DNA from: Corallococcus carmarthensis
GTDB lineage: Bacteria; Myxococcota; Myxococcia; Myxococcales; Myxococcaceae
DNA length: 44,254 nucleotides
Assembly (NCBI RefSeq): GCF_003611695.1
Contig: NZ_RAWE01000068.1
Location: forward strand, 1-44,254
Reading direction: 5' to 3'
A program made the position numbers and the translations under genes. Below the pieces are notes generated by a model that had not been told where the DNA came from, did no database searches, and saw only the letters and a list, made by a program, of their open reading frames with translations. Shown here in pieces: positions 24,535 through 41,056 of the stretch (its first letter is position 1; every line of letters begins with the position of its first letter).

Positions 24535-24714
24535 GGCGGAAGGGGGGCCCGGGAAAGGACCCTGGGTAACGCGTGCCCGTCCGGACCGCCAACGTCAAGC
24601 GCGTGAAATGTGGAGATGGGCGTCCTCGCCGGGGATTCCCGGTCCAGTCCGCAAGCGCAGGGGCGAGCGAGGTGGGATAGGGTCCAGCGGCCTCGCGGGT
24701 TCGAGGCGCACGGC

Positions 24715-26013
24715 ATGGGCACGGAGACGACGACGGTGGATTCAGGGCGCTGGCGGACGGCGGTCGCCGCGGTATTGGGGCTCTACGCGGTGGGGCTGGT
24801 GCTGGCGGAGGCGGTGCTCCAGGCCGGAGCCATCCTGGCCACGGCGCTGGCCCTGGCGCTGGCGGTGACGAAGCGGCTGCGGCTGGAGAAGGACGTGAGG
24901 GCGTTCGTGCTGGCGAGCGTCGCCCTGTGCGTCTGGCAGCTGGTCTCCCCGGCGGTGGCGCTGCTGACGGGAGCCGCGACGAAGTGGCCCCGGGGCGCGA
25001 GGTACGGCCAGGCGCTGGACACGGTGGCGGGAGCGGCGGTCGCGTGCATCGGGACGGTGGGCGTACCCTGGCTGATGCTGGGAGGCATCGTCGCGGGAGG
25101 CTGGCTGGCGGCGGCGGCGCTGGGCTTCTTCCAGCACCGGGTGCCGTGGCCCTGGGAGCCGCCGAAGTTCTCCAAGCTGAACCTGTCGCGTCTGCACGAG
25201 AACTTCGGCACGGAGGAGAACCCCAGGTACGCGGCGGGAGGCTTCTTCTTCCACCGGTTGAGGTTCGCGCACGGAGCGATTGCCGTGCTGGGACCCGCGC
25301 TGGCTGTCATCGGGCGCTCGAAGGTGACGCGGCGGCGGGTGCTGGCGGGAGCGATGGTGCTGGGGCTGCTGGTGTCCATCTACGCCGCGTTCGCGCGGGC
25401 GGCGCTGGGAGCGGCGCTGGGCGTGTGCGTGCTGGCGCTGTTGCTGTTGCTGCGGGGGACGCCGCGCAAGGTGGGGCTCGGGGTGGCGGTGGCGCTGGTG
25501 GTCGCGGTCCTGCTGACGCCCGCGTGGCGCGAGCGGTTCGGCAAGGCGGTGGACAACCTCTTCGGCAGCGGAGAGCGCTCGCTGGCGATGTCCGTGGGCT
25601 GGCGCCTGGTGCGGGAGCACACCTGGGTGGGCGTGGGTTTCGGCAATCACAAACCCGCGGCCCTGGCGACGCAGGCGGAGACGGGCATCACGGACCTGCT
25701 GGCCACGGACTCCCACAACCTCTGGCTGACGGCCTGGGCGGAGACGGGGCTGGTGGGCTTGGTGTTGCTGGCGGCGATGCACTTCCTGCTGGCGAGGGCG
25801 CTGGTGCGAAGGCACCGGGCGGGTTCCATCCCCGCAACGGGAGCGCTGTTGTCCTTCGTGGGCTTCCACGTCCTGGCCCTGGTGCACTACCTGCCGTTCC
25901 ACCCCAGCGTGCACCTGTCGTTCATGCTCATCTGGGGGCTGGGGTTGTGTGAAGATGGCGTTTACTCTGCTCAGGGACGCCGTCTTAAACAGAGTGGAAC
26001 GTCCGAGACCTAG
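24715..26013 (+). CDS. O-antigen ligase / Wzy-like polysaccharide membrane protein
   Basis: The 432-residue protein has about ten hydrophobic helices with a long loop in the second half (about 285-340). The loop end has RLVREHTWVGVGFGNHK and the hallmark TDSHNLWLTAWAETGLVGLV, the HN...E.GL signature of O-antigen ligases (WaaL) and Wzy polymerases. Such enzymes join or polymerise undecaprenyl-diphosphate-linked sugar chains at the periplasmic face. ATG 24715 is preferred; the in-frame ATG at 24610 would add about 35 charged residues. The last 15 codons are AT-richer than the rest, and an AT-rich DUF4238 gene follows 19 nt later, so the very C-terminus may have been replaced when foreign DNA joined here. 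It lies 12 kb from the other polysaccharide genes. Confidence 0.8.
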   Translation: MGTETTTVDSGRWRTAVAAVLGLYAVGLVLAEAVLQAGAILATALALALAVTKRLRLEKDVRAFVLASVALCVWQLVSPAVALLTGAATKWPRGARYGQALDTVAGAAVACIGTVGVPWLMLGGIVAGGWLAAAALGFFQHRVPWPWEPPKFSKLNLSRLHENFGTEENPRYAAGGFFFHRLRFAHGAIAVLGPALAVIGRSKVTRRRVLAGAMVLGLLVSIYAAFARAALGAALGVCVLALLLLLRGTPRKVGLGVAVALVVAVLLTPAWRERFGKAVDNLFGSGERSLAMSVGWRLVREHTWVGVGFGNHKPAALATQAETGITDLLATDSHNLWLTAWAETGLVGLVLLAAMHFLLARALVRRHRAGSIPATGALLSFVGFHVLALVHYLPFHPSVHLSFMLIWGLGLCEDGVYSAQGRRLKQSGTSET

Positions 26014-26032
26014 ACGTGTGACGGGGGATTTA

Positions 26033-26962
26033 ATGGGTGAGCCGATTAAACATCACTATGTTCCGCAGTTTTACTTGAAGAGATTTGCAGATGCAAAAGG
26101 TCAACTTAAAGTTGTTGAGCGAAGGCCTCCCTGTCGGAAGTATGTCTCAAATGTAAAGGATGTCGCGGCGGAACGGCTCTTTTATCGTCTGGAGACTGCC
26201 GAGGGCGATTCTCTTCAGCTTGAGAAGACGTTAAGTGAGATTGAGGGTGAATGCCGAGAGGCAATTTCGGACTTGCTTGCGAGTTCATTCCCGCCTGCGG
26301 TACAGGTCCGCGAGACCGTTGGTTTTTTCGTTGCGCTTCAATGGCTCCGAGGTCGAGATCAGCGAGACTCATTTAGCGATGTGTTCGATAAACTCGCGAG
26401 GCGAGCTGCGAAGGTTGTTCCCGAGCAAGAAGCAGTCAGGCCGCTAGAAAAAATGCTTGGGCGTCCTTTGACAGTTACAGAGACCCAGGAGGCCGTTGAT
26501 CGGATTGTGCGCGCCAGTGTTGAGCAATTGAAGCCAACTCACAATGAGTTGGTTCTGAGTTTGTTGAAGATGGCTCCTGGATTACAACGTATTGCTTGTG
26601 CTCGCGTCTGGCAGCTTATTAAGTTCGACAAGGATTGTCTCCTTACGTCGGATTCTCCGGTCGTGACGTGGGTTCATTCCCGCAATAGGGGTGGACTATT
26701 TTCAATGGGAGGGTTCGGGATGTGTGATGAGATCCGAATTCCATTGGACATGCGCACGGCTCTTGTGCTGGCCCAAGAAGCCCCTAGTGGCGAGGTTGTA
26801 TTGCAGGGAACGGATCTGCATGCCAAAGAGCTGAATCGCTCTGTGGCTTCGAATGCCTATCTTAGGGTTTTCCATAGAGCAGATATTGATCCTCTTAAGG
26901 ATGTCGAGTTGCCTCCGCCTTTTGAGAGTCGAATTGTCGTGGATGGATTTGGCGGAGAGTGA
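26033..26962 (+). CDS. DUF4238-family protein
   Basis: The 309-residue protein opens with IKHHYVPQFYLKRF (His7, His8), the signature of DUF4238. This family has unknown molecular function, and its members recur in accessory regions from general knowledge. The body is mixed alpha/beta with charged helices around 45-130 and a later segment containing LLTSDSPVV and GMCDEIRIPL. No signal peptide or membrane helix is present. ATG 26033 has GGGGGA a few bases upstream; an in-frame GTG at 26018 is the alternative. Base composition is clearly AT-richer than the flanking genes, with many Arg/Leu codons ending in A/T, so it looks acquired. It follows the ligase gene by 19 nt in the same direction. The invariant His pair hints at a metal-binding or nuclease-like site, but I would not assign an activity. 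Confidence 0.7.
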   Translation: MGEPIKHHYVPQFYLKRFADAKGQLKVVERRPPCRKYVSNVKDVAAERLFYRLETAEGDSLQLEKTLSEIEGECREAISDLLASSFPPAVQVRETVGFFVALQWLRGRDQRDSFSDVFDKLARRAAKVVPEQEAVRPLEKMLGRPLTVTETQEAVDRIVRASVEQLKPTHNELVLSLLKMAPGLQRIACARVWQLIKFDKDCLLTSDSPVVTWVHSRNRGGLFSMGGFGMCDEIRIPLDMRTALVLAQEAPSGEVVLQGTDLHAKELNRSVASNAYLRVFHRADIDPLKDVELPPPFESRIVVDGFGGE

Positions 26963-27034
26963 ACAGTCCGGGTTCTTGGTGGGGGATGAGTCTATAACTC
27001 CAGGCGTAGCTGGATTTTCCACCATCTTCGTGGA

Positions 27035-27217
27035 GTGGTACGGCCCGGCACGGAGAACTGGACCCAGCTCACGTCGTCCACGGTCTACTTCGCGCCGCCG
27101 AAGGGGAACGCCGGGACGCTCACCGCGCCGCCGCCCTACAACACGACCGGGTCAGGTCCGTGCACGTCGAACGTCAGCGTGTATGGTGAATGGATGCGGC
27201 ACTACAACGGCTACTGA
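27035..27217 (+). pseudogene. Orphan C-terminal gene fragment
   Basis: A 60-codon open frame with normal high-GC codon use begins abruptly where AT-rich sequence ends (about 27030). It reads ENWTQLTSSTVYFAPP, has a Pro/Gly/Thr-rich middle, and ends VSVYGEWMRHYNGY before the stop. It looks like the tail of a secreted beta-rich protein rather than a whole gene: it has no ribosome site and no N-terminal domain. The family is not recognised. Probably a gene end left by the event that brought in the DUF4238 gene. Confidence 0.4.
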
Positions 27218-27261
27218 GCCTGCTCTCAGGGCACGTGGCCCCAACGGACTGGAGTCGTGTG

Positions 27262-28128
27262 ATGGATCCCCACGCGGTCACCGAAATCGGGGCAGGCGAC
27301 ATCCAGTCGCAGGAGCTGTTCTGTGACTACGTGCCACAGGTGTTCCGACGTGCGGACTTCCGCCGTTGGCGCGCCTGGGGAGAATGGAACGACGACTACC
27401 GCGCGTTCGGCCTGATGGAGTCCGGGCGCGTGGTGGCCAATGCCTCCGTGATGCGGATGCGCTTGCTGTTGGAGGGGCGCGAGGTGACGGCCCATCAGCT
27501 GGGGGCCGTGGGGTGCCTGCCGTCGCATCGTGGCCGGGGGCTGGCGCGCGTGGTCATGAACGCCGCGCTGGAGGCATGTGGGGATGCGCCCGTGCTGCTC
27601 TTCGCCAACCCCAAGGTGCGCCAGTTCTACCCGCGGTTCGGGTTCCAGCCACAACTGCAGACACTGTTCGCCGCCACGCACGATGCCGTGCCGGAAGGCC
27701 CACCCGCGCCTACGCTCAATCTGGAGGACGCGGCAGTGCGCGCGGGACTCGCCACGCTGTCCAGCGAGGGGCTGTCCTCCACGGAGCGCTTCGGAGCGCG
27801 GAGCTACGCGACGGTGGCGAGCTGGCCCGTGGCCAATGGCTTTGCGAGGCCCTTGCGTCAGCTGGGCTCGGAGGCCTGGGTGTTCGCAGGAGTCGAGGGC
27901 GGCACGCTGTACCTCGACGACGTCTTCGCGCGTGAGCCCTTCGACCTGCGCGCCTGGATCCCCCGGTTGATTGACCAGCCCATCCGGTCCATCCGCTTCG
28001 GGTTCACTCCGGAGCGCTACTGGCCGGAGGCCGTGACGGCCGGTGAGGACCTGGAAGCGGACCTGTTCGTGCGCAACTTCCGTCCCTCACCAGAGGCCCA
28101 TCGGTTCCCGGTCATGGCCCACACCTGA
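27262..28128 (+). CDS. GNAT-family N-acetyltransferase
   Basis: The 288-residue protein has a GNAT core in its first half. Strands around GRVVANASVMRMRL are followed by AVGCLPSHRGRGLARVVM, where residues 88-95 carry the acetyl-CoA-binding R-x-G-R-G-x-A motif; then the strand PVLLFANPKVRQFYPRFGF. The C-terminal half (about 165-280) has a second GNAT-like or sterol-carrier-like fold, as in the two-domain Eis-type acetyltransferases. ATG 27262 has GGAG 8 nt upstream; the earlier in-frame start at 27190 would overlap the orphan fragment. Substrate unknown. The C-terminal 65 codons have a decayed copy at 29433-29625. The gene is convergent with a lipoprotein gene, separated by a 13-bp hairpin. Confidence 0.8.
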   Translation: MDPHAVTEIGAGDIQSQELFCDYVPQVFRRADFRRWRAWGEWNDDYRAFGLMESGRVVANASVMRMRLLLEGREVTAHQLGAVGCLPSHRGRGLARVVMNAALEACGDAPVLLFANPKVRQFYPRFGFQPQLQTLFAATHDAVPEGPPAPTLNLEDAAVRAGLATLSSEGLSSTERFGARSYATVASWPVANGFARPLRQLGSEAWVFAGVEGGTLYLDDVFAREPFDLRAWIPRLIDQPIRSIRFGFTPERYWPEAVTAGEDLEADLFVRNFRPSPEAHRFPVMAHT

Positions 28129-28160
28129 TTCTGTCCCCATGCCAATCCATGGGGACAGAA
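28129..28160. terminator. Bidirectional 13-bp terminator hairpin
   Basis: TTCTGTCCCCATG (28129-28141) and CATGGGGACAGAA (28148-28160) form a perfect 13-bp stem around a 6-nt loop. It begins right after the GNAT stop codon and lies 8 nt from the stop of the convergent lipoprotein gene, so it can end both transcripts. Its left-arm TT and right-arm AA give a short A/T edge. Confidence 0.85.
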
Positions 28161-28168
28161 GAGGGCCC

Positions 28169-29257
28169 CTACTGGCAGAGCTTCTCGACCGATTTGATCC
28201 GCACCGCGCCGTCGACGTTCGCGTCGTTGGTCTGGTCGCCGATGGCGATGATGCCGTTCGTCGTGAAGTTGTTCCGCGTGAGCTTCGTGACGCCGTCGAC
28301 GCTCACCGTCGCCACCTTCGCGGCATCCACCGCGAGCTCGTAGACGTGATACGCGCCATCGGTCACGGCGAACGCCGAGGACTGTGAGTCATCCGCCCAG
28401 CCGAGCTTCGCGCTGTCCAGGTAGATCATCTGCGAGCGATCGGTCTGGTTGCCGACCGAAGGGGTGAAGCTCCCCAGGATGGCCGCGCCGCTGTCGAGCT
28501 GATTGTGCGTGTTCACCGATTCGACCTGCATCGTCACGCGGAGCTTGAACGGCTGCGTTCCGTCAACGGTGTTCGCCCGCGCGATCAGCAACTGACCGCT
28601 CGCTCGGCCACCGCTGTTCGTCGACGTCGCGAGGCGGACGTAGTCCTCGCCGTACGTGAGCGTGTTCGGCGCCTGCGTGTACGTCGTCCAGCCCTGCGCC
28701 ACGATATCGGTGCCGCCGACCAGTAGCGGAATGCTCGCGCGGGGGGACCACGTCGTGGTCGACGTCGCGGGCGTGCAGACCTCGCATGCATTCGCCGGGT
28801 TCGGTGTCCCCTCGTCGTAGAACGTGCCGTCGATCAGGCACTTCGGGCTGCACGCGTTGGCCGAGCAAATCTGTCCCGATCCACACGTCGCCCCGTCCGC
28901 GAGCGGCGTCCACGTGTTCGCGGACGTCGCGGGTACGCACTGCTCGCAGGCATTCGCCGGGTTCACCGCCCCGGCCGCGAACTGCTCACTGCCGATCCGA
29001 CAGACCGCGACGCAGGCGCCGCTCTGACAGTCCTCGGAGGCCGTGCAGGCCTGGCCGCACCCGCCACAGTGGGCCAGGTCGGTTTCGGTGTTCACGCAGG
29101 AGTCGCCGCACTGTGTGGTGCCTTCGGTGGGGCACATCTCCACGGATGCGTCGGGCACGGACGCGTCGGGGGTGTCGTCAGGGTGATCGTCGCGGCAGGC
29201 AGCAAAGAGGCCGAGCACCACGAGGCAGGACAGAGCGATGGAGCGAATGGATGTCAT
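28169..29257 (-). CDS. Cys-rich repeat lipoprotein with a C-terminal lectin-like domain
   Basis: The 362-residue product carries a lipoprotein signal peptide with lipobox FAAC (Cys21), then a Asp/Pro-rich spacer. A Cys-rich block follows: CGDSCVNTETDLAHCGGCGQ near residues 50-80, typical of the TCGGxC-type myxobacterial repeats, and two copies of a unit containing NPANACE(Q/V)C(V/T)PATS. The C-terminal 190 residues are beta-rich (YTQAPNTLTYGEDYVRLA, DGAYHVYELAVDAAKVATVS) and look like a concanavalin-type jellyroll that often binds sugars. It should be exported and membrane-anchored on the envelope. It is convergent with the GNAT gene, and its composition is native. Function unknown; surface attachment or carbohydrate binding is the natural guess. 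Confidence 0.8.
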   Translation of the reverse strand: MTSIRSIALSCLVVLGLFAACRDDHPDDTPDASVPDASVEMCPTEGTTQCGDSCVNTETDLAHCGGCGQACTASEDCQSGACVAVCRIGSEQFAAGAVNPANACEQCVPATSANTWTPLADGATCGSGQICSANACSPKCLIDGTFYDEGTPNPANACEVCTPATSTTTWSPRASIPLLVGGTDIVAQGWTTYTQAPNTLTYGEDYVRLATSTNSGGRASGQLLIARANTVDGTQPFKLRVTMQVESVNTHNQLDSGAAILGSFTPSVGNQTDRSQMIYLDSAKLGWADDSQSSAFAVTDGAYHVYELAVDAAKVATVSVDGVTKLTRNNFTTNGIIAIGDQTNDANVDGAVRIKSVEKLCQ

Positions 29258-29323
29258 GATGGTAGGTGACTTTCCGCCTGCATCATGGATCTCAAAGGGG
29301 GGCCGCCCTGGTTTTTCGCGAGG

Positions 29324-29428
29324 ACTCGTCAGAGTCCAAGCTCCAGGCCGATGCCCGGAGCCACGGACCAGAGCGTCTTCCGGGAACTACTCCCCGGGAA
29401 CCACTTACCGACGACCTGGGCCCGGAGG
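29324..29428 (-). repeat. 105-bp direct copy of the patatin gene 3' end
   Basis: 29324-29428 matches 34441-34545 in the same orientation, 94 of 105 positions identical by eye, ending abruptly after GGGCCCGGAGG. On the minus strand it encodes the last ~32 residues of the patatin-like phospholipase (LRAQVVGKWFPGSSSRK, ending GLELGL and a stop), without the rest of that gene. The two copies flank the CHAT gene and are 5.1 kb apart. Most changes look neutral, so the copy is an older duplication and not a recent one. Confidence 0.85.
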
Positions 29429-29432
29429 CCTA

Positions 29433-29625
29433 GATGGTCGCGGAAATCGAAGGAGAGACACACTACCTCGACGAAGTTTTCGCCAAGTAGCCCTTCGACC
29501 TGAGCGCCTGAATCCACGGATTGTCTAACCGAACCATGCGGGACATCCACTGCGCCTTCCACCCTGGGCGCAACCAGAGGGAAGCGAGGACACGGAGGTC
29601 GGCCTGCTCGTGCGGAATCTACAGC
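29433..29625 (+). pseudogene. Decayed C-terminal fragment of the GNAT acetyltransferase
   Basis: This segment aligns with 27890-28085, the C-terminal third of the GNAT gene. Translated in frame it reads EGETHYLDEVFAK, stop, PFDLSA, stop, IHGLSN, against EGGTLYLDDVFAREPFDLRAWIPRL in the intact gene, so there are two in-frame stop codons (TAG, TGA), and further on the frame drifts but the DNA still matches (CTGCTCGTGCGGAAT against CTGTTCGTGCGCAAC). It starts four bases after the patatin-end copy. The N-terminal two-thirds are absent. It is not expected to make protein. Confidence 0.75.
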
Positions 29626-29845
29626 TCTCACGAAAGGCTCATACTTGACGCCTAGCCAGTTGCTCTTTGCTGCTGCCCCGCGCTGCGACCCTTTCTAGGA
29701 ATACTCGCTGATTGATCTTGCCCCATCCTGACCTTCCTTCAACTTGGCTGACTTGGAAGGTCTGCTTGCCCGAGCTCTCTAGTGCCGCCATGTGATGCTG
29801 TGTTAAGTAAAGCTCCGTACTCTGATGCTGCTTGAGGAGGCGTGT
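29626..29845 (+). other. Gene-poor leader of the CHAT gene
   Basis: Between the GNAT remnant and the CHAT start the composition falls from high GC to AT-richer, around 29690-29800. I see no open frame of coding character and no clear -35/-10 pair; TTAAGT at 29803-29808 is a possible but unsupported -10 element. Confidence 0.5.
29834..29840 (+). promoter_or_regulatory. Ribosome binding site of the CHAT gene
   Basis: GAGGAGG at 29834-29840 is the strongest site near the start and lies 5 nt before GTG 29846. An in-frame ATG at 29825 is upstream of it, and ATG 29858 lies 17 nt after it, so GTG 29846 is the best start. Confidence 0.6.
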
Positions 29846-32800
29846 GTGGTTGATTTAATGACAGCGGATGGTTGGCAGGGACTGTTTGCGCAGAGTGCTC
29901 CTGTTCGAGGCGGTGTGGATATCCACATCTTTCCCGTGAAAGACTTGAGTGGATACTCTGCTGCATTTGGGGTGGTCACTTGTCTTGCCCAAGATGGAGC
30001 GCAGTCTCTGTTTTTCTCGGAGATTGTAATACTAGTTCCGGTTGTTGGTTCGGAGGAAGGCGCATTGTTCGAGGTTAATTTCGTTAGTCGACTGCATGAA
30101 GTGCTTGAGGGGGTGGTTGCGAGTGGGCGCGTTGAGGAGTATTTAGGATTTGTCAAAACGCGAATTCGTGTTGTTGCTGTGCTGGAGTGTGAGACTGATG
30201 CGCTTGTGGCAGCTGTGGATTCGCTTTCGACAAATGCATGTGTTCTTGTTTTGAAGAGCGATCAGTTTAGTTCGCCATCTGTGTTGCCGCCTGTCGAGCT
30301 TATGGCGACACAGGTGTATGAAGATGAAGTTCTGAGAATTAATACGTTGGAGGATTTTTGGGTGCCGCAGGTCATTCATCTCCATGGGCGATTAAGTGAG
30401 GTCGCGGCCGAAAAAAACCTCTATGTTGTCATTCAGGTCGCACAGGAGTCGCCCGTGCGTCCGGAGAACCTTGATGCAATTCGCAATTGCAATGGGGGAT
30501 TGGTCATAGGCGAAAGCTCCAAGGGGGAGCAAAGTTCCATGGCGGGGTTCGGTCGTTGGGTGGAAATGATTAAGGGCGGGGATGAGGCGCTAGCATTTTG
30601 CGAGATCGACGGTGTTGGTTTTAATTTGTTAAATACAGCCCTCGCCAAAGCTCAATGCTTGCTTGCGGCTGATCAAGGGCCACTGGCATTTGAATTCCTT
30701 TTGCCATTTAGGGAGGAACTCGTGTCGGAAGCCCCTGCGCATATCGCGCATCTTGCGGCACGCTTGGCTCGGCAGGCAGGCCGGAGGGAGGATGCGGTTG
30801 CTCTTCTCAATCGGGCCGTTCATGCGGAGGATTCTGATCTTGAGTGCCTCCGTTCGTCCCTCAACCTTGCGCGCCTTTTGGGACATGATGACCTTTTCTC
30901 CAAGACGCGCGAACTTATTATTGCGCGCTATCCACAGTCTGATGAGTCAGTGCGCGCGACATTCGTGCCGCTGCTTAATGGTGGGCGTTACGCTGAGGTC
31001 GCCGATGGACTTCGGCCCATCGTGCTGCGAAGTCATCCGTCATCGCTCTCTCAGTACCTGCTTCTCCTCGCCGAGGCCTTCGCGCCAGAGCCAATTCCAG
31101 ATTACGGACGCTTTATTCAGCATGTTCGGAATGCGATGGGAGACTCGCAGGCTTCGCAAGCTGTGTTGGACAGTCTAAGAGATACGCTGCGACGCCATCT
31201 TGATGCGGAATCGGTTAATTTACTTGTTGGGCAACCAGTGTTGCCGGAATTTATGGAGGATGCGGCGTCACTAGGGTTGCAGATTCTCGAACGTATTCTG
31301 CTTGCTCCTTCCGTGCTTAGGGAGCAAGAGGTCCACAATCGTGACCTTGAAACAGCGGCGGTAGTGAATTGGCTGGTGCGTTATGTTGCGACGCATCCTG
31401 GTGATGGGGATACAAGAAGCGCACTCAGTCGACTTGTTTCGCCAGAGTTGGCGGGTACGTATGGAATTGCTCTATTGCTCTCGCTTGCGTTGGACGCAAT
31501 CGCAATGGAGCCCCAAGGGGACGGCGCGCAGATGCGGCCTGTGGTTGAGTCGAGATCCGTTGATTTGGAAAAGGCGTTCAATGATTTGCCTGTCTTAATA
31601 AGGCAGTTGCCTCGAACTGGCGTGATTCTTGGTGCTGTCTCTCTTGATTTTCGAGAAGTGTCATCGACGCCGGAGGATTTGTTGGAGGCGGTTGATGCTC
31701 TTCTTGATCGAGCAGTGAAAGAATCCGAGAGAGAAAGCGAATCAAAGAAAACATTGGCCATGGTGAGCATGTTGCTGCCAGTGGGTATTGCTCTTGCTCG
31801 CAGGATTAATGATTCTTTGGCGGAATATCGATTACTTCGGACAGGTGCCATGGCGCTTGCGTTGTCGGGAGAGTCGCAGCCAGCACGAAATTTGGCCGAG
31901 CATGGCTTGGTTGTCGCCGCTTCATGCCAAGATTCTGAGACTCTGCGGGCGGCGTGGCATCTCTTTTCCGATGTGTATCTTCGTGTGCGAAGTATTCATG
32001 ATGCTGCGCTTGGTTTGGCTTGTGTTAGTAAGTTGGAGTCGTTGCCTAGTGGGCGCCGAGATGTATTTTTTGATGCATATCTTGTGGTGCGATTGGCGCG
32101 CGACGCTGGTCTCATTTCTCTTGCTCAGCGGGGTATGGTTAGCGCCGAGGCGCTCTTGACTGAAGAGCAGCGGACTGGAATCAATGGTCTTGAGATTGAA
32201 GTGCTTCGCGCGACAATTGAAATGCGAGCCGTTTTTTCGGATCTGGGGCGTGGAGTAGATGATGAGGCCGCAAGTCGGATCGAAAAGCTTGCAATGGACT
32301 TGGAGCGCCTTCTGGTGCGTGCGCGTGAGATCAATGCGCCATTGTCGCCGTTGTTGATTGTTTTGGCGCAAGTTCTTGCTGTGGGGCACGATTTGCACGT
32401 GGCATTTGCCCCATCGGTTCAGCAAGTATTTGAAGAGGGGACTCGGACGCTGGGGCCAAGTATCGAAACGCGCGTGCGTGCGCTGATGGGCGCGGACGTG
32501 GGGCAGTTGGCGCTAAGTGGTATGGCGCGAACGCTTGCTTCAACTCGGTTTGCGCAGGATATAGGGACCGATATTGCAGAGGGAAGGGTTGTTGCGCATA
32601 GAGCCATCAGCCAAAATCCACTGCCGTCGCCCGAGAAGGTCTGTTTCTTCCTGGATTGGCTTGGTGATCATTCTGTTCGTATCCCTCGTGATGATGCCGG
32701 GGGGAAGAAAGAACTTGGTTCGCAGGACGATGCAGCGCTGATTGCTTGGGCATCAAGGCAGGGAATTGCATTGAGGCCGGAGCAGCTAGTTGATTTGGTG

Positions 32801-33922
32801 AAGCGACTGGACAGGACGGGTCATGTCCTCGGAAGCACAATGCAGGGCGGCCAGGTTGAGCTTCCCGGCGATCCAGCTGTGACGGCCAGACGACTCGCAT
32901 TGGTGGGGGTGCAAGGAATTGATGTTCATCTCTTGGGATTGAGTGAACAAGGACGGCTTGTTCATGCGTGCTTCTCGAACGGGAAAGTTGCGACGGTTGA
33001 TGAGTCTGTTGAAGTCTTTGATGTCGGCGCAATGGAAGCTTGGTCGAAGATGTACCCGAGTGGCTTTTCGCTAATGGATTCACGCGATCCATTTGGGGCG
33101 CAAGCCGTGGAGCATGTGATGCGACGGATCGGGATGTCGGCAGAAGCCTGCGAAAGGCCTCTGCTGCTTCTGCCGGAAGCGGCTCTTCAGACCCTTCCGG
33201 GAAATCTATTGCTAACTGAGGGGCGTCTCGTCGGTACCTTGAGGCCGGTGGCTATGGCGCCATCGCTGACTTGGGTGCACGCAGCTCATTCAATTCCGCG
33301 CCAATCAACAGGGCGATTTGTTGCGTGGATTTCTGAGGAGTCAGTAGTCGAAATAGGGGTGGTTTCAGCCCTAACGCAGTTGCGTGAGTTTACTCGGCAG
33401 GAACTGGAAGATTTCGGGTTCCAAATCGAAGGTGGTGCCAAGCCTCCAGAGTCGTTGATGGACGCAGATATCGCCTTTGTGGGAGCACATGGAGGCATTG
33501 GTCAAGAAGGGCGCTACTTCCGAGTTGTTTCTGATGAGGCGCAAACTCGCCTGTCTGCGAGGACGCTTGCGCGGCAGTGCTCAGGCGCCGGAGTGGTCGT
33601 GCTTGCTGTGTGCAATTCTGGCAGGCATGACGTGGATCCCTATAGTGGGGCGGCCTATGGGCTCGCTAGGGCTCTGCTTGATCATGGTTGCCGTGCGGTG
33701 ATTGCTCCGCCTTGGCCTCTGGATGTGCGAGTAATGCGGAGTTGGCTGCCGGCGTTCCTTACGGCTCTGGAAGATGGGATGCCTATTATTCAGGCAAATT
33801 TTATTGCCAATCGTGAAGTGGGTGCACGTTTGAGCTGGCATCCGAGCGTCCAAGTGGCAATGCATGTGTACGGCGATCCGTTCCTTCAGATGGCAGTCAG
33901 GCGCAGGGAGGCGAGAAGTTAA
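29846..33922 (+). CDS. Large CHAT-domain (caspase-like) protease with a helical-repeat body
   Basis: The 1358-residue protein ends in a CHAT (caspase HetF-associated with TPRs) peptidase domain. The catalytic dyad is visible: His1215 in FVGAHGGIG, after a hydrophobic strand, and Cys1256 in VVLAVCNSG, 41 residues apart, as in clan CD cysteine peptidases. Other CHAT marks are MAPSLTWVHAAHS before the dyad and APPWPLDVRVMRSWLPAFLTAL after it. The middle (about 280-1000) is alpha-helical with TPR-like pairs (RREDAVALLNRAVHAEDSDL). The first 230 residues form an unrecognised mixed alpha/beta region. No signal peptide or membrane helix is seen, so it is cytoplasmic. Codon use is much AT-richer than the neighbours, suggesting transfer. 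CHAT proteases elsewhere act in gasdermin, Craspase and cell-death defence systems; no partner gene is adjacent here. GTG 29846 has GAGGAGG 5 nt upstream. Confidence 0.85.
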   Translation: MVDLMTADGWQGLFAQSAPVRGGVDIHIFPVKDLSGYSAAFGVVTCLAQDGAQSLFFSEIVILVPVVGSEEGALFEVNFVSRLHEVLEGVVASGRVEEYLGFVKTRIRVVAVLECETDALVAAVDSLSTNACVLVLKSDQFSSPSVLPPVELMATQVYEDEVLRINTLEDFWVPQVIHLHGRLSEVAAEKNLYVVIQVAQESPVRPENLDAIRNCNGGLVIGESSKGEQSSMAGFGRWVEMIKGGDEALAFCEIDGVGFNLLNTALAKAQCLLAADQGPLAFEFLLPFREELVSEAPAHIAHLAARLARQAGRREDAVALLNRAVHAEDSDLECLRSSLNLARLLGHDDLFSKTRELIIARYPQSDESVRATFVPLLNGGRYAEVADGLRPIVLRSHPSSLSQYLLLLAEAFAPEPIPDYGRFIQHVRNAMGDSQASQAVLDSLRDTLRRHLDAESVNLLVGQPVLPEFMEDAASLGLQILERILLAPSVLREQEVHNRDLETAAVVNWLVRYVATHPGDGDTRSALSRLVSPELAGTYGIALLLSLALDAIAMEPQGDGAQMRPVVESRSVDLEKAFNDLPVLIRQLPRTGVILGAVSLDFREVSSTPEDLLEAVDALLDRAVKESERESESKKTLAMVSMLLPVGIALARRINDSLAEYRLLRTGAMALALSGESQPARNLAEHGLVVAASCQDSETLRAAWHLFSDVYLRVRSIHDAALGLACVSKLESLPSGRRDVFFDAYLVVRLARDAGLISLAQRGMVSAEALLTEEQRTGINGLEIEVLRATIEMRAVFSDLGRGVDDEAASRIEKLAMDLERLLVRAREINAPLSPLLIVLAQVLAVGHDLHVAFAPSVQQVFEEGTRTLGPSIETRVRALMGADVGQLALSGMARTLASTRFAQDIGTDIAEGRVVAHRAISQNPLPSPEKVCFFLDWLGDHSVRIPRDDAGGKKELGSQDDAALIAWASRQGIALRPEQLVDLVKRLDRTGHVLGSTMQGGQVELPGDPAVTARRLALVGVQGIDVHLLGLSEQGRLVHACFSNGKVATVDESVEVFDVGAMEAWSKMYPSGFSLMDSRDPFGAQAVEHVMRRIGMSAEACERPLLLLPEAALQTLPGNLLLTEGRLVGTLRPVAMAPSLTWVHAAHSIPRQSTGRFVAWISEESVVEIGVVSALTQLREFTRQELEDFGFQIEGGAKPPESLMDADIAFVGAHGGIGQEGRYFRVVSDEAQTRLSARTLARQCSGAGVVVLAVCNSGRHDVDPYSGAAYGLARALLDHGCRAVIAPPWPLDVRVMRSWLPAFLTALEDGMPIIQANFIANREVGARLSWHPSVQVAMHVYGDPFLQMAVRRREARS

Positions 33923-34064
33923 TTTGTAGATGAGAATTCGACTTTTAGGCGGGCCGGCTTTGTGCGGTTTCCGATTTCTGAGGTGCGACAGTAGATGTGG
34001 AGCGGCTTGAATATGATTGCCGGCCATGTGTTGTTGTGAGGTGCAATACGTCGGCCCTGGTTTT

Positions 34065-34094
34065 GTTAGTTTTGTGCCTCTAATGGCACCTAAC
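34065..34094. terminator. Bulged hairpin downstream of the CHAT gene
   Basis: GTTAG (34065-34069) pairs with CTAAC (34090-34094), and GTGCC (34074-34078) pairs with GGCAC (34085-34089), with a TTTT bulge on the left. It could end the CHAT transcript or be a remnant of a mobile-element end; it lies 54 bp before the transposase fragment. Confidence 0.35.
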
Positions 34095-34147
34095 GAAAGT
34101 CAGGACTGGACTGGTCGTCGGCAAGGTGCATCCTCAGGTTGAAGTGC

Positions 34148-34255
34148 ATGGTCCGTGAACTCGTTCCCGACGCCTTCTGGCAGCGCGTGGCACCCCTGTT
34201 GCCTCCGCCTCGGCCGACTATGACAAATGCGATGAGAGCTTACGCCTCCGAATAG
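34148..34255 (+). mobile_element. Truncated IS5-like transposase (N-terminal fragment)
   Basis: ATG 34148 opens a 35-codon frame reading MVRELVPDAFWQRVAPLLPP then PRP before it degenerates to a stop at 34253. This is the standard N-terminus of IS5/IS4-superfamily transposases (in which a Leu-Val-Pro-Asp start precedes the LLPPxxP motif). The catalytic DDE domain is gone. It marks a former insertion next to the CHAT gene, 225 bp after its stop. I could not identify inverted repeats or a target duplication. Confidence 0.6.
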
Positions 34256-34445
34256 AGGTTCGGTGGATTGGTTTGCGGTTCAATGAACATAGGGTGTTGT
34301 TGGGGTGTGCTTGTCAGAAAGAACCGGCCGCAGCTGCTTTGACCCTGCAGCTAGGGCAAAGATGGAGCGCACACTCCGGAACTCTAGTCTTAGGCAACTG
34401 CGGCATGTGCCTTCACCCCGTCTCCTCCTTCTTCTATTGGAGTCG

Positions 34446-36752
34446 TTAGAGCCCCAGCTCCAAGCCAATGCCCGGGGCCACGGACCAAAGCGACTTCCGG
34501 GAACTGCTCCCCGGGAACCACTCACCGACGACCTGGGCCCGGAGGAACTCCAGGAAGGTGATGCCTACGAGCGCCTGGACGACGGGCCGTGAGCACGCGG
34601 TCACGTGGCTGGCGCCTCCGTCCCTGCAGACGTTCGTCCCGTAGTCGTCGTTCGCGCTGAACAACCAGCCGGCGCGAAGCGCGAGGCGACTCTGGGAGAG
34701 GAAGGTCTGCTCTGCGCGAGGCTGGAACTCCAGCCCTCCCGTGAGTGCCACGCCAAAGGGATCGCTGCTGCTGCCGGAGGAAAGGACGTCCTCGAGTCCG
34801 CGGAACCCGAGCGCACCGGCGAACCGGAGTCCGGAGGTCAGCGGCATCTCGGAGGCCCCGACGCTCAAGCCCAGCTCGCTCTCGGTGGGCCCCATGGTGA
34901 TGTGCAGCGACAGGCGCTGGGGCTCGTAGCTGATGTTGTCCACCGCGAGCTTGCTGGCGAAGCGGACCGTGGGCTTGTCGGAAGCGGGCTGCACCGCCGC
35001 GAGCCGGTGGGCTGCATCTCCGAGCGAATGGCGGATGCGCAGGACGGCGAGATCGCCACGGCCCTTCGGCACGCCGAGGTCTCGAAACGCGAAGCCATAG
35101 GCACCGAGCAGCCGCATCGAATACGCCAGCTCTGATTCCTTGTCGCTCCGCTTCCAGTCCGGCCACTCGCTGGGATGAAGGCCGGGGACCCTCGGCGGAG
35201 ACTGCCCCGCGATGGCGCGGTCACAGTGCGCGTTGCGCCAGGTACCAGCGGGGGCCGTCCCAGCGGACTTGTTGCATGCGTCGTAGAGCTGATCCAAAGA
35301 CATCTGCAACAGCGCCCGGAAGTCCGCCAGCGCTTCGCCCTGACAGCTCTGGTCCGCGTCCGGCGAGGAGTCGTAGACGGCGCTCATGCAGGCGAAGGGC
35401 TGCCATCCTCCGGGTCCATCCATCGCTGCCGCGCGAGGCCCCTCCGACTTCGTCCGCCCTTCCCGGAATGCGTCATCCATCATCCGGCGGGCGTCATACA
35501 TGCCGAGATAGAAATCAAAGACACGGAAGCTGGTCTCGAAGAAGCCCAGGAACGCGAAGAGGGGGGCCCCGGCTGCGGGGAAGTGCCGTCGAGGAAGGGT
35601 GAGCCGCTTGGCGATCTCCGGCTCTTCCTCCAGGAGCATGGCCAGTTCTTTCGAGCGCGCCGTGTCCACGAAGGCAGCCAGGATCTCCGCGAGTGTCCCC
35701 GGCAGTGAGGCCGGTCCAGTGCTGGCTTGAGCCGGTGGCGCTACCGGGTACTCAGTGGCGTCTGGATCAATGAACGCGAATGCGATGCCTGGGGGAGTCG
35801 TGCGTGCGTCGGGCTGTGGAACCGGGCGCCACTCCAGCTTGCCATCCGCTGTTTCGCGCAGACCATCGCGAGCGAGTCCTACGGCCAGGCGGAGTGGGGT
35901 GTTGTCGAAGACGCCGCCGTCGATGAAGAGCTCGCGCCGTGCCTCCGCTGGCAGGCACACCCCAGGCTTGGCGGACGCATTCGCCGCGCAGGTGCGCAGC
36001 GGCTGTGGCGGGAACGCGATGGGGAAGGACATGGACGCGAGGAGAAGCTCGCGCAGGTTCGCGAAGGGGATCTCCCCGTGTTCGTCCGTCTCGAGCATCA
36101 GCTCCAGACGCCGGCCCTCGCGAGTGGTGTAGTTGGTCGCACGGGGAGGCCGTCCCTTCCCACGTCCCTGGATGCGGATGGCGAACTTCTCTTCGAGCCG
36201 GGGTAGGTCGAGCCGTCCATTCGCGGCCTGGAGCGCGCGGGGGGCGACACGCGTTGTCGAGACTCCAAGCACCACGTCGCAGGATGAATCCAGACCTCGA
36301 TTCCAAGCCTGTTCAATGTGGACGGCGCGGCGTTCCAGTGACTCCCGCGAGAAGACACCGAGCGGCGTCGTCGAGGACGGGATGAAGAGGTCGTTGAAAC
36401 CAATGGGAACCCAGATATCCCAGAACAGCGATTGGGCCGGCGTGGAGGCATCCACGCCGCAGGTGGCCATGACCGCCAGCAGGGCGTTGAGGCTTCCCGC
36501 GGAGGCGCCTGTTACGAGCCGGAGGTCCACGGCCCGTTCTCCCTGGGAGGACGTCCCCGAGTAGTACAGGAACCCTGCCTCGTACGTGCCCAGGGACACG
36601 CCTCCACTCACGGTCAGCGACACGGCCTTCGGGGATGCGGTCTGGAGCGAGTCGAGCGCCTGGGCACTCGCGGTCGAAGCAACCAGGAACAGCACGCAGG
36701 CGAAGGCGCGGGTCAGCAGTCCACGGACGCGTGATTTCGCGGTGCTGATCAT
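34446..36752 (-). CDS. Secreted patatin-like phospholipase with a beta-rich C-terminal region
   Basis: The 768-residue protein has a cleavable signal peptide (basic start, then FACVLFLVASTASA, cleaved near residue 30). Residues 42-330 are a patatin lipase domain: oxyanion loop VSGGVSLGTYEAG (Gly50-Gly55), nucleophile Ser84 in VTGASAGSLN, and the catalytic Asp278 in FIDGGVFDNTPL, so all catalytic parts are in place. The middle region is Pro/Arg-rich and helical. The last 200 residues are beta-rich (alternating hydrophobic strands such as ALRAGWLFSAN, ending GLELGL), possibly an outer-membrane barrel, as in patatin-type autotransporters, but no POTRA domain is obvious. ATG 36752 is chosen as start; upstream in-frame ATGs lack a signal-like start. 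Its 3' end is duplicated at 29324-29428. Confidence 0.87.
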   Translation of the reverse strand: MISTAKSRVRGLLTRAFACVLFLVASTASAQALDSLQTASPKAVSLTVSGGVSLGTYEAGFLYYSGTSSQGERAVDLRLVTGASAGSLNALLAVMATCGVDASTPAQSLFWDIWVPIGFNDLFIPSSTTPLGVFSRESLERRAVHIEQAWNRGLDSSCDVVLGVSTTRVAPRALQAANGRLDLPRLEEKFAIRIQGRGKGRPPRATNYTTREGRRLELMLETDEHGEIPFANLRELLLASMSFPIAFPPQPLRTCAANASAKPGVCLPAEARRELFIDGGVFDNTPLRLAVGLARDGLRETADGKLEWRPVPQPDARTTPPGIAFAFIDPDATEYPVAPPAQASTGPASLPGTLAEILAAFVDTARSKELAMLLEEEPEIAKRLTLPRRHFPAAGAPLFAFLGFFETSFRVFDFYLGMYDARRMMDDAFREGRTKSEGPRAAAMDGPGGWQPFACMSAVYDSSPDADQSCQGEALADFRALLQMSLDQLYDACNKSAGTAPAGTWRNAHCDRAIAGQSPPRVPGLHPSEWPDWKRSDKESELAYSMRLLGAYGFAFRDLGVPKGRGDLAVLRIRHSLGDAAHRLAAVQPASDKPTVRFASKLAVDNISYEPQRLSLHITMGPTESELGLSVGASEMPLTSGLRFAGALGFRGLEDVLSSGSSSDPFGVALTGGLEFQPRAEQTFLSQSRLALRAGWLFSANDDYGTNVCRDGGASHVTACSRPVVQALVGITFLEFLRAQVVGEWFPGSSSRKSLWSVAPGIGLELGL

Positions 36753-36793
36753 GGAACGCTTCTCACTCTGCTGATGGCTATGGGAGGCCAGGG

Positions 36794-37051
36794 TCATTTG
36801 CGCCGGAAGACCCACTCGACCCCAGGTTGATCTGGCTGCCAACCTGCGTCGAGCGCGTGGTGAATGACTTCTTTGACGAGGCCCGGCGCGATGATCGTTC
36901 CGTGCTCAACCCAGGTCACCATGGGCCGTCCGCGCGCCCCTTCATGCTCAACGACGATGGCGAGGCCTGGCTCATCGTTGGGCGCGACCGTCCATCGGAA
37001 GGACATCTCCCTGACGACGATGCGCCGCGTCCCCTTGCGCCGCAGTGTCAC
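36794..37051 (-). CDS. Small hypothetical protein coupled to a glycosyltransferase
   Basis: The 85-residue protein has a basic N-terminus (TLRRKGTRRIVVREMSF) and a beta/alpha body ending GWQPDQPGVEWVFRRK. The GTG start overlaps the stop of the upstream glycosyltransferase gene as GTGA, so it should be co-translated with it. The family is not recognised; no signal peptide or membrane helix is visible. It lies upstream of, and in the same direction as, the patatin gene, with 41 nt between. Coupling suggests a job next to the glycosyltransferase, such as a small partner, but nothing in the sequence proves this. Confidence 0.65.
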   Translation of the reverse strand: MTLRRKGTRRIVVREMSFRWTVAPNDEPGLAIVVEHEGARGRPMVTWVEHGTIIAPGLVKEVIHHALDAGWQPDQPGVEWVFRRK

Positions 37052-38145
37052 GGCCGTACCTGCTGTCTTCCCTGGAGGGCTCGCCTGAAAACGCCGAGGG
37101 TCTGTTGGGCGCATCGGTCCCAGGTGAACCGGGCCGCTCGCTCTCGACCCAACTCAATCAGGCTCCGGCGCAGATTCTCGTCCCTGAGAACTCGCAGCGT
37201 TGTTTCATGCCAGGACTTCGCATCGTCGGGCGGGACTCGCATCGCCGCATCGCCCACGACCTCCGGAAGTGCTGTCGCATCCGAGACGATGACGGGACAC
37301 CCGGCCGCCATGGCTTCCAGCGCCGGCAATCCAAACCCCTCGTACTTCGACGGCAAGAGCAATGCCGTAGCTGCCCCATAGAACAACGCCATTTCCGACT
37401 CAGGCAGTTGCTCCAGGTCGATGACGTTCTCATGCAGGCCCGTCTCATGCGCCACCGCGCCCTTGCCCGCCAGCAGCACCAGCGGTACCGGCAGGTCCGG
37501 CGCGAACTTCCCCAGCATCGCCAGGTTCTTGAACGGCTTGGCATTGCCGACAACCGCCACATACCGCTCTGGCAACTCATGCCGCTCCCGGAATGCCTTC
37601 GCCTCACTGGCCGTGGGCGGCTGGAACCGCGAATCCACACCGTTGTGGATCACCTGGAACCGGTACGGCGACATCTTCAGATACTTCCCCAGCTCCTCCC
37701 GGGAAAAGTCAGACACCGTGATCAGCGCAGTCGCCAGCCGCGCCCGAGGACCCACCACGGCCTTGTAATAAATCGCCTGCACCGGCGTGTACTGGTCCGC
37801 CAGCGCCAGGTGGTTCGCGTCATGCAACGTCGCCACCAGCTTCCCCGGCCAGAACAGCGGCAACGAGAACGACGTCGCGTGGAACAGGTCCGGCTTCAAC
37901 TTCGTCAGCTCGTACGCCAGCAGCGGCTGCTCCGTCGGGGACAGGTACCCCGCCCGGGAACGGTGCATCGGAATCGTCGGCGTCAGTTCACCCAGGTCGT
38001 CCGGCAGCCCCTTCGCGGGGACCAGCGCGGAGAACTCCAGGTCCGGGGCCAGGGCGGGCAGCCGGCGCGCCAGCTCCAGCGCGTACCTCGCGATGCCGTG
38101 GAGCTGACCGCGCACCATTCTCAGGTCGAGGAGGACAGAAGGCAC
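37048..38145 (-). CDS. GT4-family glycosyltransferase
   Basis: The 365-residue protein has the two Rossmann domains of GT-B enzymes. The N-terminal acceptor domain includes VRGQLHGIARYALELARRL, and the C-terminal donor domain has the retaining GT4 (group 1) EX7E motif, Glu269 and Glu277 in SKYEGFGLPALEAMAAGCPV. It should transfer a sugar from a nucleotide-sugar to a glycan acceptor, probably in exopolysaccharide or O-antigen building, given the polysaccharide genes around it. GTG 38145 is the start, keeping the conserved LLDLRMVRG. The gene is divergent from a second GT4 gene, with only 68 bp between the starts. It is followed, with GTGA overlap, by a small unknown gene. Donor and acceptor are unknown. 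Confidence 0.88.
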   Translation of the reverse strand: MPSVLLDLRMVRGQLHGIARYALELARRLPALAPDLEFSALVPAKGLPDDLGELTPTIPMHRSRAGYLSPTEQPLLAYELTKLKPDLFHATSFSLPLFWPGKLVATLHDANHLALADQYTPVQAIYYKAVVGPRARLATALITVSDFSREELGKYLKMSPYRFQVIHNGVDSRFQPPTASEAKAFRERHELPERYVAVVGNAKPFKNLAMLGKFAPDLPVPLVLLAGKGAVAHETGLHENVIDLEQLPESEMALFYGAATALLLPSKYEGFGLPALEAMAAGCPVIVSDATALPEVVGDAAMRVPPDDAKSWHETTLRVLRDENLRRSLIELGRERAARFTWDRCAQQTLGVFRRALQGRQQVRP

Positions 38146-38213
38146 GCTCCCTGGCCTACCACACGCGGCCTTCCCCCCGCACCGCCGCGCCTCGGTGCTA
38201 CAAGGCCCTCCCC

Positions 38214-39344
38214 GTGAAGGTCGCCCTCGTCCACGACTGGCTCGTCACCCACCGCGGCGGAGAGCGCGTCCTCGACGCCCTCTGCGAACTGTTCCCCAGC
38301 GCGGACCTCTACACCCTCATCCACCAGCCGGGCAGCCAGCCCCCGCGCATCGAGGACCGGCGCATCACCACGTCGTTCCTCCAGCACATCCCCGGCATCC
38401 ACTCGCGCTACCGGCACTTCCTGCCGCTGTTCCCCCGCGCCATCGAAGCCCTGCGCATCACCGGCGACTACGACCTGGTCCTGTCCTCCAGCCACTGCGT
38501 CGCCAAGGGCATCCACGCCCCTCCCGGCGTGCCCCACCTGAGCTACGTCCACGCTCCCATGCGGTACATGTGGGACCTGTTCGACGAGTACTTCGGCCCC
38601 GGCCGCACGCGCCTCCCCGTCCGCGCCGCCGCCCTCGCCGTGCGCCCCTACCTCCAGCACTGGGACCGCGCCTCCACCGACGGCGTGGACCGCATCGTCG
38701 CCAACTCCCAGCACATCGCCGGGAAGATCCGCCGCTTCTGGGGCCGTGACGCCTCCGTCGTCCCGCCCCCCGTGGAGCTGGAACGCTTCACCCAGGTGCC
38801 GCTCGAAGGAGGAGGGCAGGGCGGCTACTTCCTGTGGCTCGGCGCCTTCGCCCCCTACAAGCGCCTCGATGTCGCCCTGGAGGCCTTCCGCACCCTGGAC
38901 ACCCCGCTGTGGGTCGTGGGCACGGGACAGGAGGCCGCGCGCCTCACGTCGGGCCCGCTCCCGCCCCACATCCGCTTCCTCGGCAACGTGCCCGACAGCG
39001 CGCTCCCCGCCCTCTACCGCGACGCGCGCGCGCTCCTCTTCACCCCCGAGGAGGACTTCGGCATCACCCCCCTGGAGGCCCAGGCCACCGGCCGCCCCGT
39101 CATCGCCTTCGGCAAGGGCGGCGCCCTGGAGACCGTCACTTCCAAGACGGGCCTCTTCTTCCCGGAGCAGACCCCCGCGTCCCTCGCCGCCGCCGTGCGC
39201 CAGTTCGACGCGTGGGAGGCCTCCTTCCGCCCCGAGGACGCCCGCGCCCAGGCCGAGCGCTTCGGCCGCGCCCGCTTCCAGCAGGCCATCCAGGCGGAAG
39301 TGGACGCCCTTTTGGGCCTGTCCCCGGCCTCCCCAGCGGTGTGA
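38214..39344 (+). CDS. GT4-family glycosyltransferase
   Basis: The 376-residue enzyme starts at GTG 38214 with KVALVHDWLVTHRGGERVL, the first strand and glycine-rich turn of a GT-B fold. Further signatures are YDLVLSSSHCVAKGIHAP and HLSYVHAPMRYMWDLFDEYF in the acceptor domain, and the donor motif EX7E (Glu280, Glu288) in TPEEDFGITPLEAQATGRPV. It is a retaining glycosyltransferase. The order (divergent GT4 pair, then a phosphosugar transferase 219 bp later on the same strand) suggests it adds an early sugar to a lipid-linked repeat unit. Sequence does not show which sugar. Confidence 0.88.
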   Translation: MKVALVHDWLVTHRGGERVLDALCELFPSADLYTLIHQPGSQPPRIEDRRITTSFLQHIPGIHSRYRHFLPLFPRAIEALRITGDYDLVLSSSHCVAKGIHAPPGVPHLSYVHAPMRYMWDLFDEYFGPGRTRLPVRAAALAVRPYLQHWDRASTDGVDRIVANSQHIAGKIRRFWGRDASVVPPPVELERFTQVPLEGGGQGGYFLWLGAFAPYKRLDVALEAFRTLDTPLWVVGTGQEAARLTSGPLPPHIRFLGNVPDSALPALYRDARALLFTPEEDFGITPLEAQATGRPVIAFGKGGALETVTSKTGLFFPEQTPASLAAAVRQFDAWEASFRPEDARAQAERFGRARFQQAIQAEVDALLGLSPASPAV

Positions 39345-39421
39345 CAGCGCTGTCCGCCCCCTCCCCACTTTCCCGAGGCCTGCCCGCTCGGTGTGTCGGA
39401 TTGTGTCGGCTGCCCTGCGGT

Positions 39422-39452
39422 CCAACCGGTTGGATTCACGGGAAAACCCGTG
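39422..39452. promoter_or_regulatory. Two palindromes in the phosphosugar transferase promoter region
   Basis: CCAACCGGTTGG (39422-39433) is a perfect 12-bp palindrome overlapping the -35 box candidate. CACGGG-AAAA-CCCGTG (39437-39452) is a perfect 6-bp inverted repeat filling the spacer before the -10 box. They look like operator sites. Confidence 0.45.
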
Positions 39453-39459
39453 CTAGGAC
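39430..39459 (+). promoter_or_regulatory. Candidate promoter of the phosphosugar transferase gene
   Basis: TTGGAT (39430-39435), an 18-bp spacer and TAGGAC (39454-39459). The -10 hexamer is the same as at purH. It leaves a 5' leader of about 100 nt before GTG 39563. Confidence 0.45.
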
Positions 39460-39562
39460 CCCGCGCCGGGGGAGGGGTCCGGGCGCCTGACGGGGCCCGG
39501 GGCGAAGGGTGCGTGTCTTGCATCCGACGGACCGTCTTCGTCCCCCGACAGGAGTCATCGCG

Positions 39563-40957: not shown

Positions 40958-41033
40958 GCCGGGCGGCGGCAGGCAGGCGGGCAGGACGGGCGCGCAGGTC
41001 GTATTCATGCGCACCCTCTCATTGGCACCGCGA

Positions 41034-41046
41034 AGTCTTCTAGACT
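41034..41046. promoter_or_regulatory. Short inverted repeat before the MshEN gene
   Basis: AGTCT-TCT-AGACT is a perfect 5-bp inverted repeat ending 10 bp before ATG 41057. It could be an operator half-site pair or an mRNA hairpin close to the start; no good ribosome site is seen. Confidence 0.3.
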
Positions 41047-41056
41047 GCGGGCCGAC

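Follow-up and report, generated by a model that had tools for sequence, protein, structure and literature searches.

We analysed a stretch of 44,254 nucleotides from contig NZ_RAWE01000068.1 of Corallococcus carmarthensis (the window), in which a GTG-initiated gene at positions 29846–33922 codes for a CHAT protein of 1358 amino acids (aa). It probably belongs, with its relatives, to an uncatalogued group of mobile defence proteins that each come from a single gene and have no substrate gene next to them; the role in defence is suggested by the context of its relatives. We judge the protease engine to be a known one, its architecture and context to be new and the family to be uncatalogued. Dozens of relatives have the same full architecture, so that a chance origin of the open reading frame (ORF) is excluded.

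Protease module and solenoid

The Pfam profile for CHAT (PF12770) matches the protein with 45.4 bits against a curated cut-off of 24 (E 9.1e-12; residues 1213–1324 when numbered from the in-frame ATG at 29825), and no other Pfam family exceeded its cut-off in a scan of the whole protein. A CHAT profile search of the whole genome matches at the same locus. The profile match bears out the initial annotation, which had called a stand-alone CHAT protein of 1358 residues from the nucleotide sequence. GTG is the likely start codon, since an AGGAGG site precedes it by 5 nt; the alternative ATG lies upstream of this site.

His1215 and Cys1256, named earlier as a catalytic dyad, are indeed retained, both being invariant in two alignments of relatives (12 of 12 and 33 of 33 rows, the window protein counted in). 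In the predicted model, His1215 is found at the end of one strand and Cys1256 after the next strand, which is the order expected in a caspase-like fold. We infer that the window protein acts by proteolysis.

The model of residues 225–1358 (predicted local distance difference test, pLDDT, 82.9; predicted template modelling score, pTM, 0.82) is helical as far as about residue 939; a link of low prediction quality (about 950–1004) leads on to the CHAT module. In agreement with the earlier description of the long helical middle as TPR-CHAT-like, the best structural matches are Csx29/Craspase and separase. VIA-align gave Z 25.4 over 488 residues, but a root-mean-square deviation (rmsd) of 13.2, for Csx29/TPR-CHAT chain 7y83_D, Z 24.3 (rmsd 4.4, 397 residues) for Csx29 chain 7y84_C and Z 24.6 (rmsd 3.3, 302 residues) for separase chain 5fc2_B; the top Foldseek rows for the same residues are human separase. 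Further down the VIA-align results, DdvA (Z 19.4) and SAVED-CHAT (8tl0_D, Z 17.1 over 172 residues) were found.

Because of the match to Csx29 and separase, the CHAT module can be read as a pseudo-protease-like half followed by the half that bears the dyad. Residues of about 950–1022 form an extra, poorly predicted stretch before the CHAT module, largely without counterpart in 11 aligned relatives. Separase likewise joins a solenoid to a CHAT-type protease module; the window protein differs from it in being bacterial, in the low identity of the separase rows (9–16%), in having no securin/cohesin and in its predicted RecA-like N-terminus. SAVED-CHAT is also a CHAT protease effector, whereas no SAVED domain was recognised in the window protein.

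Predicted N-terminal domain

Residues 1–228 were modelled by AlphaFold2 (AF2) as an alpha/beta domain (model of residues 1–300: pLDDT 87.5, pTM 0.86). The best VIA-align match of this model reached Z 11.6 (rmsd 3.2 over 155 residues), which exceeds the Z of 7–8 quoted as typical of models without a clear match, and all 50 best rows are Rad51/Dmc1/RadA, DnaB/Twinkle or RepA-type chains. Rad51, Dmc1, RadA, DnaB, Twinkle and the RSF1010 RepA helicase were matched by Foldseek and VIA-align; Foldseek also lists T7 gp4 and two ATP synthase rows, and its template modelling scores on the query are only 0.30–0.41. Many named rows of a BFVD fold search are replicative helicases.

ATP binding by this domain is unlikely, because no Walker A motif (GxxxxGK[ST]) stands at the matching loop in 33 rows: the window protein contains none, and the few GK[ST] of its relatives lie off the aligned loop. 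Sequence homology to KaiC or AAA_25 was considered and received no support from profile–profile comparison. With hhalign, the N-terminus gave 1.7% probability against a 20-row KaiC set (score 20.7, the best of 20 shuffles scoring 19.7) and 0.4% against an AAA_25 set of 6 rows; KaiC against AAA_25, as positive control, gave 98.8%. The RecA-like assignment is a prediction at the level of fold, drawn from one model.

The N-terminus had been annotated as unrecognised. This stands as far as Pfam is concerned, since no family exceeded its cut-off in a scan of residues 1–300 and the matching parts of 32 relatives (ten families match this set once each, E 0.007–0.09), whereas the predicted fold is recognisable as RecA/DnaB-like without a P-loop. 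The predicted domain differs from the N-terminus of Csx29, with which a comparison had been proposed: it is modelled as alpha/beta and RecA-like, while Csx29 starts with a three-helix bundle (PMC10028731). All 33 aligned rows have W172, and P65, D170, W238, G245 and Q270 are nearly invariant. Two Pseudomonas relatives of 1046 aa (L068 and L071) are without the RecA-like N-terminal domain.

The N-terminal domain of BcsE has a predicted RecA-like fold with a degenerate Walker A and is reported to homo-oligomerise (PMC7439463), an example of assembly served by a RecA-like fold whose Walker A does not work. BcsE is a regulator of cellulose secretion without a protease, likened to the window protein by description alone.

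Acquisition and distribution of the gene

Comparison within the genus indicates that the CHAT gene was acquired as a single inserted gene. When positions 24400–44254 were compared with 16 genomes of the genus (the own genome included), the flanking DNA was found in all 16, and no match among those listed fell inside the CHAT gene outside the own genome. Six genomes were compared in detail. Four have clean empty sites (G087, G077, G086 and G080), in which the left flank extends to 29428 and the right flank begins at 34423–34444, with one stretch of about 100 bp common to both flanks. Since the empty sites hold one such repeat stretch and the window holds two, the insert is placed at about 29429–34442 (5.0 kb), with the CHAT gene as the sole large gene inside. 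G076 and G078 lack the CHAT gene and have one repeat stretch, next to which lie about 2.2 kb (G076) and 0.5 kb (G078) of other DNA. The G + C content at third codon positions (GC3) is 0.509 in the CHAT gene compared to 0.797–0.959 in six flanking genes of this 10.8 Mb genome (530 contigs). The empty sites, the flanking repeat and GC3 support the annotation of an acquired segment with a composition unlike that of the host.

The right repeat is the 3' end of a patatin gene, indicating that the insertion event duplicated or replaced this end. The patatin gene itself was rejected as a partner. Related genomes have its DNA where the CHAT gene is missing, which shows that the two genes were not brought in together. 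Just behind the CHAT gene lies the remnant of an insertion sequence (IS)-like element, presumably of the IS5 type; a longer copy of the element contains a transposase-like ORF that agrees in its N-terminal residues (compared by eye). No integrase was recognised in the insert, and no RNA element of Rfam matched in the window. The coordinates of the features are given in Table 1.

Table 1 Features of the CHAT gene, its product and the insert (positions in the window)
Feature	Position	Strand	Basis
CHAT protein gene, 1358 aa, GTG start	29846–33922	+	Reading frame, PF12770 match, GC3 0.509
Shine-Dalgarno AGGAGG, 5 nt 5' of GTG	29835–29840	+	Read from sequence
N-terminal domain, residues 1–228, predicted RecA/DnaB-like fold, no Walker A	29846–30529	+	AF2, fold searches, motif scan
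Alpha-solenoid (TPR/PPR-like), residues 229–939	30530–32662	+	All-helical model; matches to Csx29, separase and other solenoids
CHAT module, residues 1010–1343	32873–33874	+	Model secondary structure, PF12770, separase 5fc2_B match
His1215 codon, catalytic dyad	33488–33490	+	Invariant in alignments of relatives
Cys1256 codon, catalytic dyad	33611–33613	+	Invariant in alignments of relatives
Left copy of 103-bp direct repeat bounding the insert	29326–29428		90% identical to 34443–34545
Right copy of 103-bp repeat, over 3' end of patatin gene	34443–34545		Genus comparison
IS-like element remnant (5' end), just behind CHAT gene	34086–34217	+	Dispersed matches of about 130 bp, many copies across the genus
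Patatin ORF	34446–36842	-	ORF list, Pfam

Beside the left repeat, a stretch of 139 bp (29416–29554) is 73% identical to the 3' part of a GNAT gene (27862–28000), which makes the left junction a patchwork. The site may be an insertion hotspot, since G076 carries about 2.2 kb of different DNA at almost this position (L107 8634–10849), with two ORFs (474 and 302 aa) that have no match in PADLOC. Upstream, a DUF4238 gene (25949–26962, plus strand) has a GC3 of 0.485, as low as that of the CHAT gene, and matches PADLOC DUF4238-Pers (E 1e-12). It neighbours the same exopolysaccharide genes as the CHAT gene, and the DNA between about 25960 and 27030 has no match in the six genus genomes compared.

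Relatives of similar size were found in Pseudomonadota chromosomes, on plasmids and on viral contigs. A scan of the genome_contigs collection yielded 46 loci; it requires short conserved peptides, and counts of relatives are lower bounds. With tblastn, 23 of 72,556 plasmid records match, 19 of which are predicted to be conjugative; none reaches 60% identity and one covers at least 80% of the query. There was no tblastn match among 50,697 phage records. Three viral contigs carry relatives (L156, L157 and L158); from about 3.2 kb past the CHAT-family gene, L158 has a stretch that resembles genes for phage tail and tape-measure proteins.

The alignment drew on genome_contigs, plasmid and other genome copies of at least 1200 aa, shorter ones being left out. 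Its 45 rows, the window protein included, are 1247–1387 aa long and 21–26% identical to the window protein. The frameshifted L069 is among these rows and was left out of alignments A2 and A3 and of the tree; L033 was dropped as a duplicate of L034, and the near-duplicates L023 and L026 were kept off the tree and retained in neighbour clustering. Named hosts are mostly Pseudomonadota, others including Desulfoprunum, a Deferrisomatales metagenome-assembled genome (MAG) and a Myxococcales MAG. No relatives in E. coli were found with one Pantoea gene as DNA query, and two Vibrio tapetis plasmid matches cover the C-terminus only. According to the family profile, 21 genomes known to hold a copy have one each, that of G211 being in two abutting pieces. 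Frameshifts affect L059 and L069, and L056 is interrupted; several more copies are fragmentary or run off the end of a contig. The frameshifted, interrupted and fragmentary copies are consistent with fast turnover.

Within the own phylum, where three candidates per genome were scored, 6 of 194 other genomes have a match at 1e-5, near-full-length in one (G132). In the tree of 42 rows, the G132 copy groups with a Rhizobium plasmid copy and the window protein forms a very long branch. A clade of these two proteins from the phylum is rejected by the approximately unbiased test (p 0.00013; 28 of the 42 tree rows, long branches being a caveat), and the phylogeny indicates that the G132 copy arrived separately from the window gene.

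No match in PADLOC 2.0.0 (5027 models) was obtained for the window protein at E 0.1 or for the 33 members of A3 at 0.01, and no NCBIfam model matches the window protein. A literature search, with most subscription papers outside its scope, revealed no title or abstract describing the present family, and the word 'CHAT' is missing from the main text of PMC7159879, on bacterial conflict systems. Borvo (BovA) is a CHAT defence protein (PMC10952713) and comprised one gene in the original system (PMC12322248). The presumed single-gene defence role is shared with the window protein, whereas BovA belongs to a different, shorter family (models of 711 and 720 positions). Assignment to Borvo was rejected: the BovA models PDLC03831 and PDLC03832 gave no match at E 0.1 to the whole protein or the CHAT part, and matched other CHAT proteins weakly in the same scan.

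Neighbourhoods, competing explanations and proposed mechanism

Proteins of at least 90 aa within eight genes were clustered for 44 loci (540 proteins), gene calls in the fetched loci coming from a simple ORF picker. The largest cluster, an integrase, occurs in 5 of the 44 loci, five clusters occur in 4 loci and the rest in at most 3; the six largest comprise three integrases, a DUF2326 ABC-3C protein, LysR regulators and a plasmid protein of unknown function. No adjacent partner recurs among the 44 loci. The initial annotation had envisaged cutting of a specific partner and a survey of neighbourhoods to find it; its usual sign, a co-encoded substrate, is missing. On a Sulfitobacter plasmid (L020 11344–14797), the CHAT-family gene is followed by a gene for an ATP-binding protein and then by an S8 peptidase gene.

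The neighbours of relatives were compared with controls for 20 loci, from 21 genomes chosen for long contigs. The two nearest genes of at least 130 aa on each side (79 proteins) matched 114 PADLOC families at 1e-10, versus 43 in 80 control proteins from one arbitrary distant region on the same contig per genome. Below 1e-60, the neighbours yielded type III Mod and Res, LmuA, LmuB, SngA, SngB, TRIP13, Upx and AbiEi, as well as two endonuclease-effector models and a SAVED model that perhaps represent one protein; the controls yielded DinG only. Of 20 chosen neighbours scanned singly, those of L043 include SngA, SngB and a helicase and those of L065 type III Res and Mod; L068 has a LmuB-like protein with a weaker match, and L066 a weak match of the AriA/mad3 kind. 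Eight annotated plasmid neighbourhoods together contain ABC-3C, TrlF, Z1/AIPR/PD-(D/E)XK, an Abi gene and TIR-domain genes, several of them also toxin-antitoxin genes and integrases. With type III restriction-modification (R-M), Shango, Lamassu, CBASS-type and Abi genes around the relatives, the defence role suggested in the initial annotation is plausible.

Several observations weigh against a mobile defence protease. The tallies count families and not proteins, and one protein can match many models; the controls also hold 43 families, from a single arbitrary region per genome; and 13 of the 20 singly scanned neighbours, themselves chosen from the 79, have no PADLOC match at 1e-10. No known defence system adjoins the window gene, the DUF4238 match 3 kb upstream being the only one. 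L157, one of the two viral contigs checked, has hardly any likeness to phage records. DdvA, which is named an anti-sigma factor, has a related fold (Z 19.4), so that the fold need not mean a protease. The RecA-like assignment comes from a single model and finds no support at the sequence level.

Among the competing explanations, the one that fares best is a protein carried on plasmids or prophages and active between mobile elements, by exclusion of rival plasmids or phages or in plasmid maintenance, and not in general immunity. The 23 plasmid records, most of them predicted to be conjugative and several with rep/par or toxin-antitoxin genes near the CHAT-family gene, and the viral contig with phage-tail-like DNA speak for it. 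Loci with R-M, Shango and CBASS-type genes fit general defence, and we regard this explanation as unlikely, while noting that the two roles overlap.

Somewhat less probable is a Craspase-like protease that cuts one dedicated partner, the partner or a guide complex being encoded at a distance. The strong fold match to Csx29 argues for it: in both proteins an alpha-solenoid precedes a caspase-like module with a His-Cys dyad (Z 18–25, predicted fold), and Csx29 cuts Csx30, its named CRISPR-associated partner in type III-E systems (PMC10028731). However, no partner recurs, the most frequent neighbour being the above-mentioned integrase, and no Cas family was recognised in the nine other window ORFs, among them no Cas7-11 or Csx30 (the rest of the genome was not searched for Cas7-11). 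With 1358 aa, the window protein is about twice as long as the solved Csx29 chains (640–812 residues), and its predicted N-terminus is unlike the three-helix N-terminal domain described in that source. Membership of Csx29 was rejected, the fold being in common and the context and N-terminus not. The earlier statement that no gasdermin, Cas or STAND gene lies nearby agrees with the scan of these nine ORFs (24610–40957), in which none was recognised, shorter ORFs being outside the scan and the presence of a gasdermin model in the libraries being unchecked.

A regulatory or developmental CHAT protein unconnected with defence, like DdvA or cyanobacterial HetF, is improbable: the structural match to DdvA and the 10 other CHAT matches in the genome (11 with the window gene) favour it, but only one of these 10 resembles the window protein, weakly (E 3.2e-4), and the recent insertion with empty sites in the genus, the foreign GC3, the patchy distribution, the plasmid copies and the separate arrival in G132 argue against it.

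For the favoured single-gene defence protein, one polypeptide would combine a sensor or assembly domain (RecA-like without an ATP site), a signal-transmitting alpha-solenoid and a separase/Csx29-type CHAT cysteine protease. The solenoid would hold the CHAT active site out of line as long as the cell is at rest. The N-terminal domain and the solenoid might then be bound by a replication or recombination assembly of the invader, or by another of its conserved proteins; replication proteins are a reasonable guess for the trigger because phage polymerase mutations escape Borvo (PMC11348598), although Borvo is a separate and shorter family. A conformational change, possibly with oligomerisation via the RecA-like face, would align His1215 and Cys1256. 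Activation driven by the solenoid is the natural model because the layout is that of Csx29, which has a pseudo-caspase and an active caspase domain and whose His and Cys are realigned once the last TPR repeat senses target RNA (PMC10028731). The protease would cut a substrate not encoded nearby. Since nothing recurs in the neighbourhoods, this is more likely a protein of the invader, a conserved one of the host or a second molecule of the protease, and the cleavage would stop growth or phage replication.

A more specific version, which we put forward tentatively and consider rather unlikely, sees the RecA-shaped pseudo-ATPase as a bait or docking face for invader replication and recombination nucleoside triphosphatases (helicases, recombinases, loaders), releasing the separase-like protease of the same polypeptide, which would kill or arrest the cell via a conserved host target. 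If true, the protein would be a bacterial all-in-one counterpart of the caspase pathway without a partner gene.

Bacterial CHAT proteases are best understood where a partner gene reveals trigger and substrate, for example in Craspase, and in gasdermin systems a partner gene likewise betrays both. The present family has the same engine and no partner, which means that trigger and substrate should be sought elsewhere; the single-gene form eases a knock-in test. If the dead RecA-like front end is the sensor, the family would link the phage replication machinery directly to a separase-type protease and would provide a simple model of solenoid switching.

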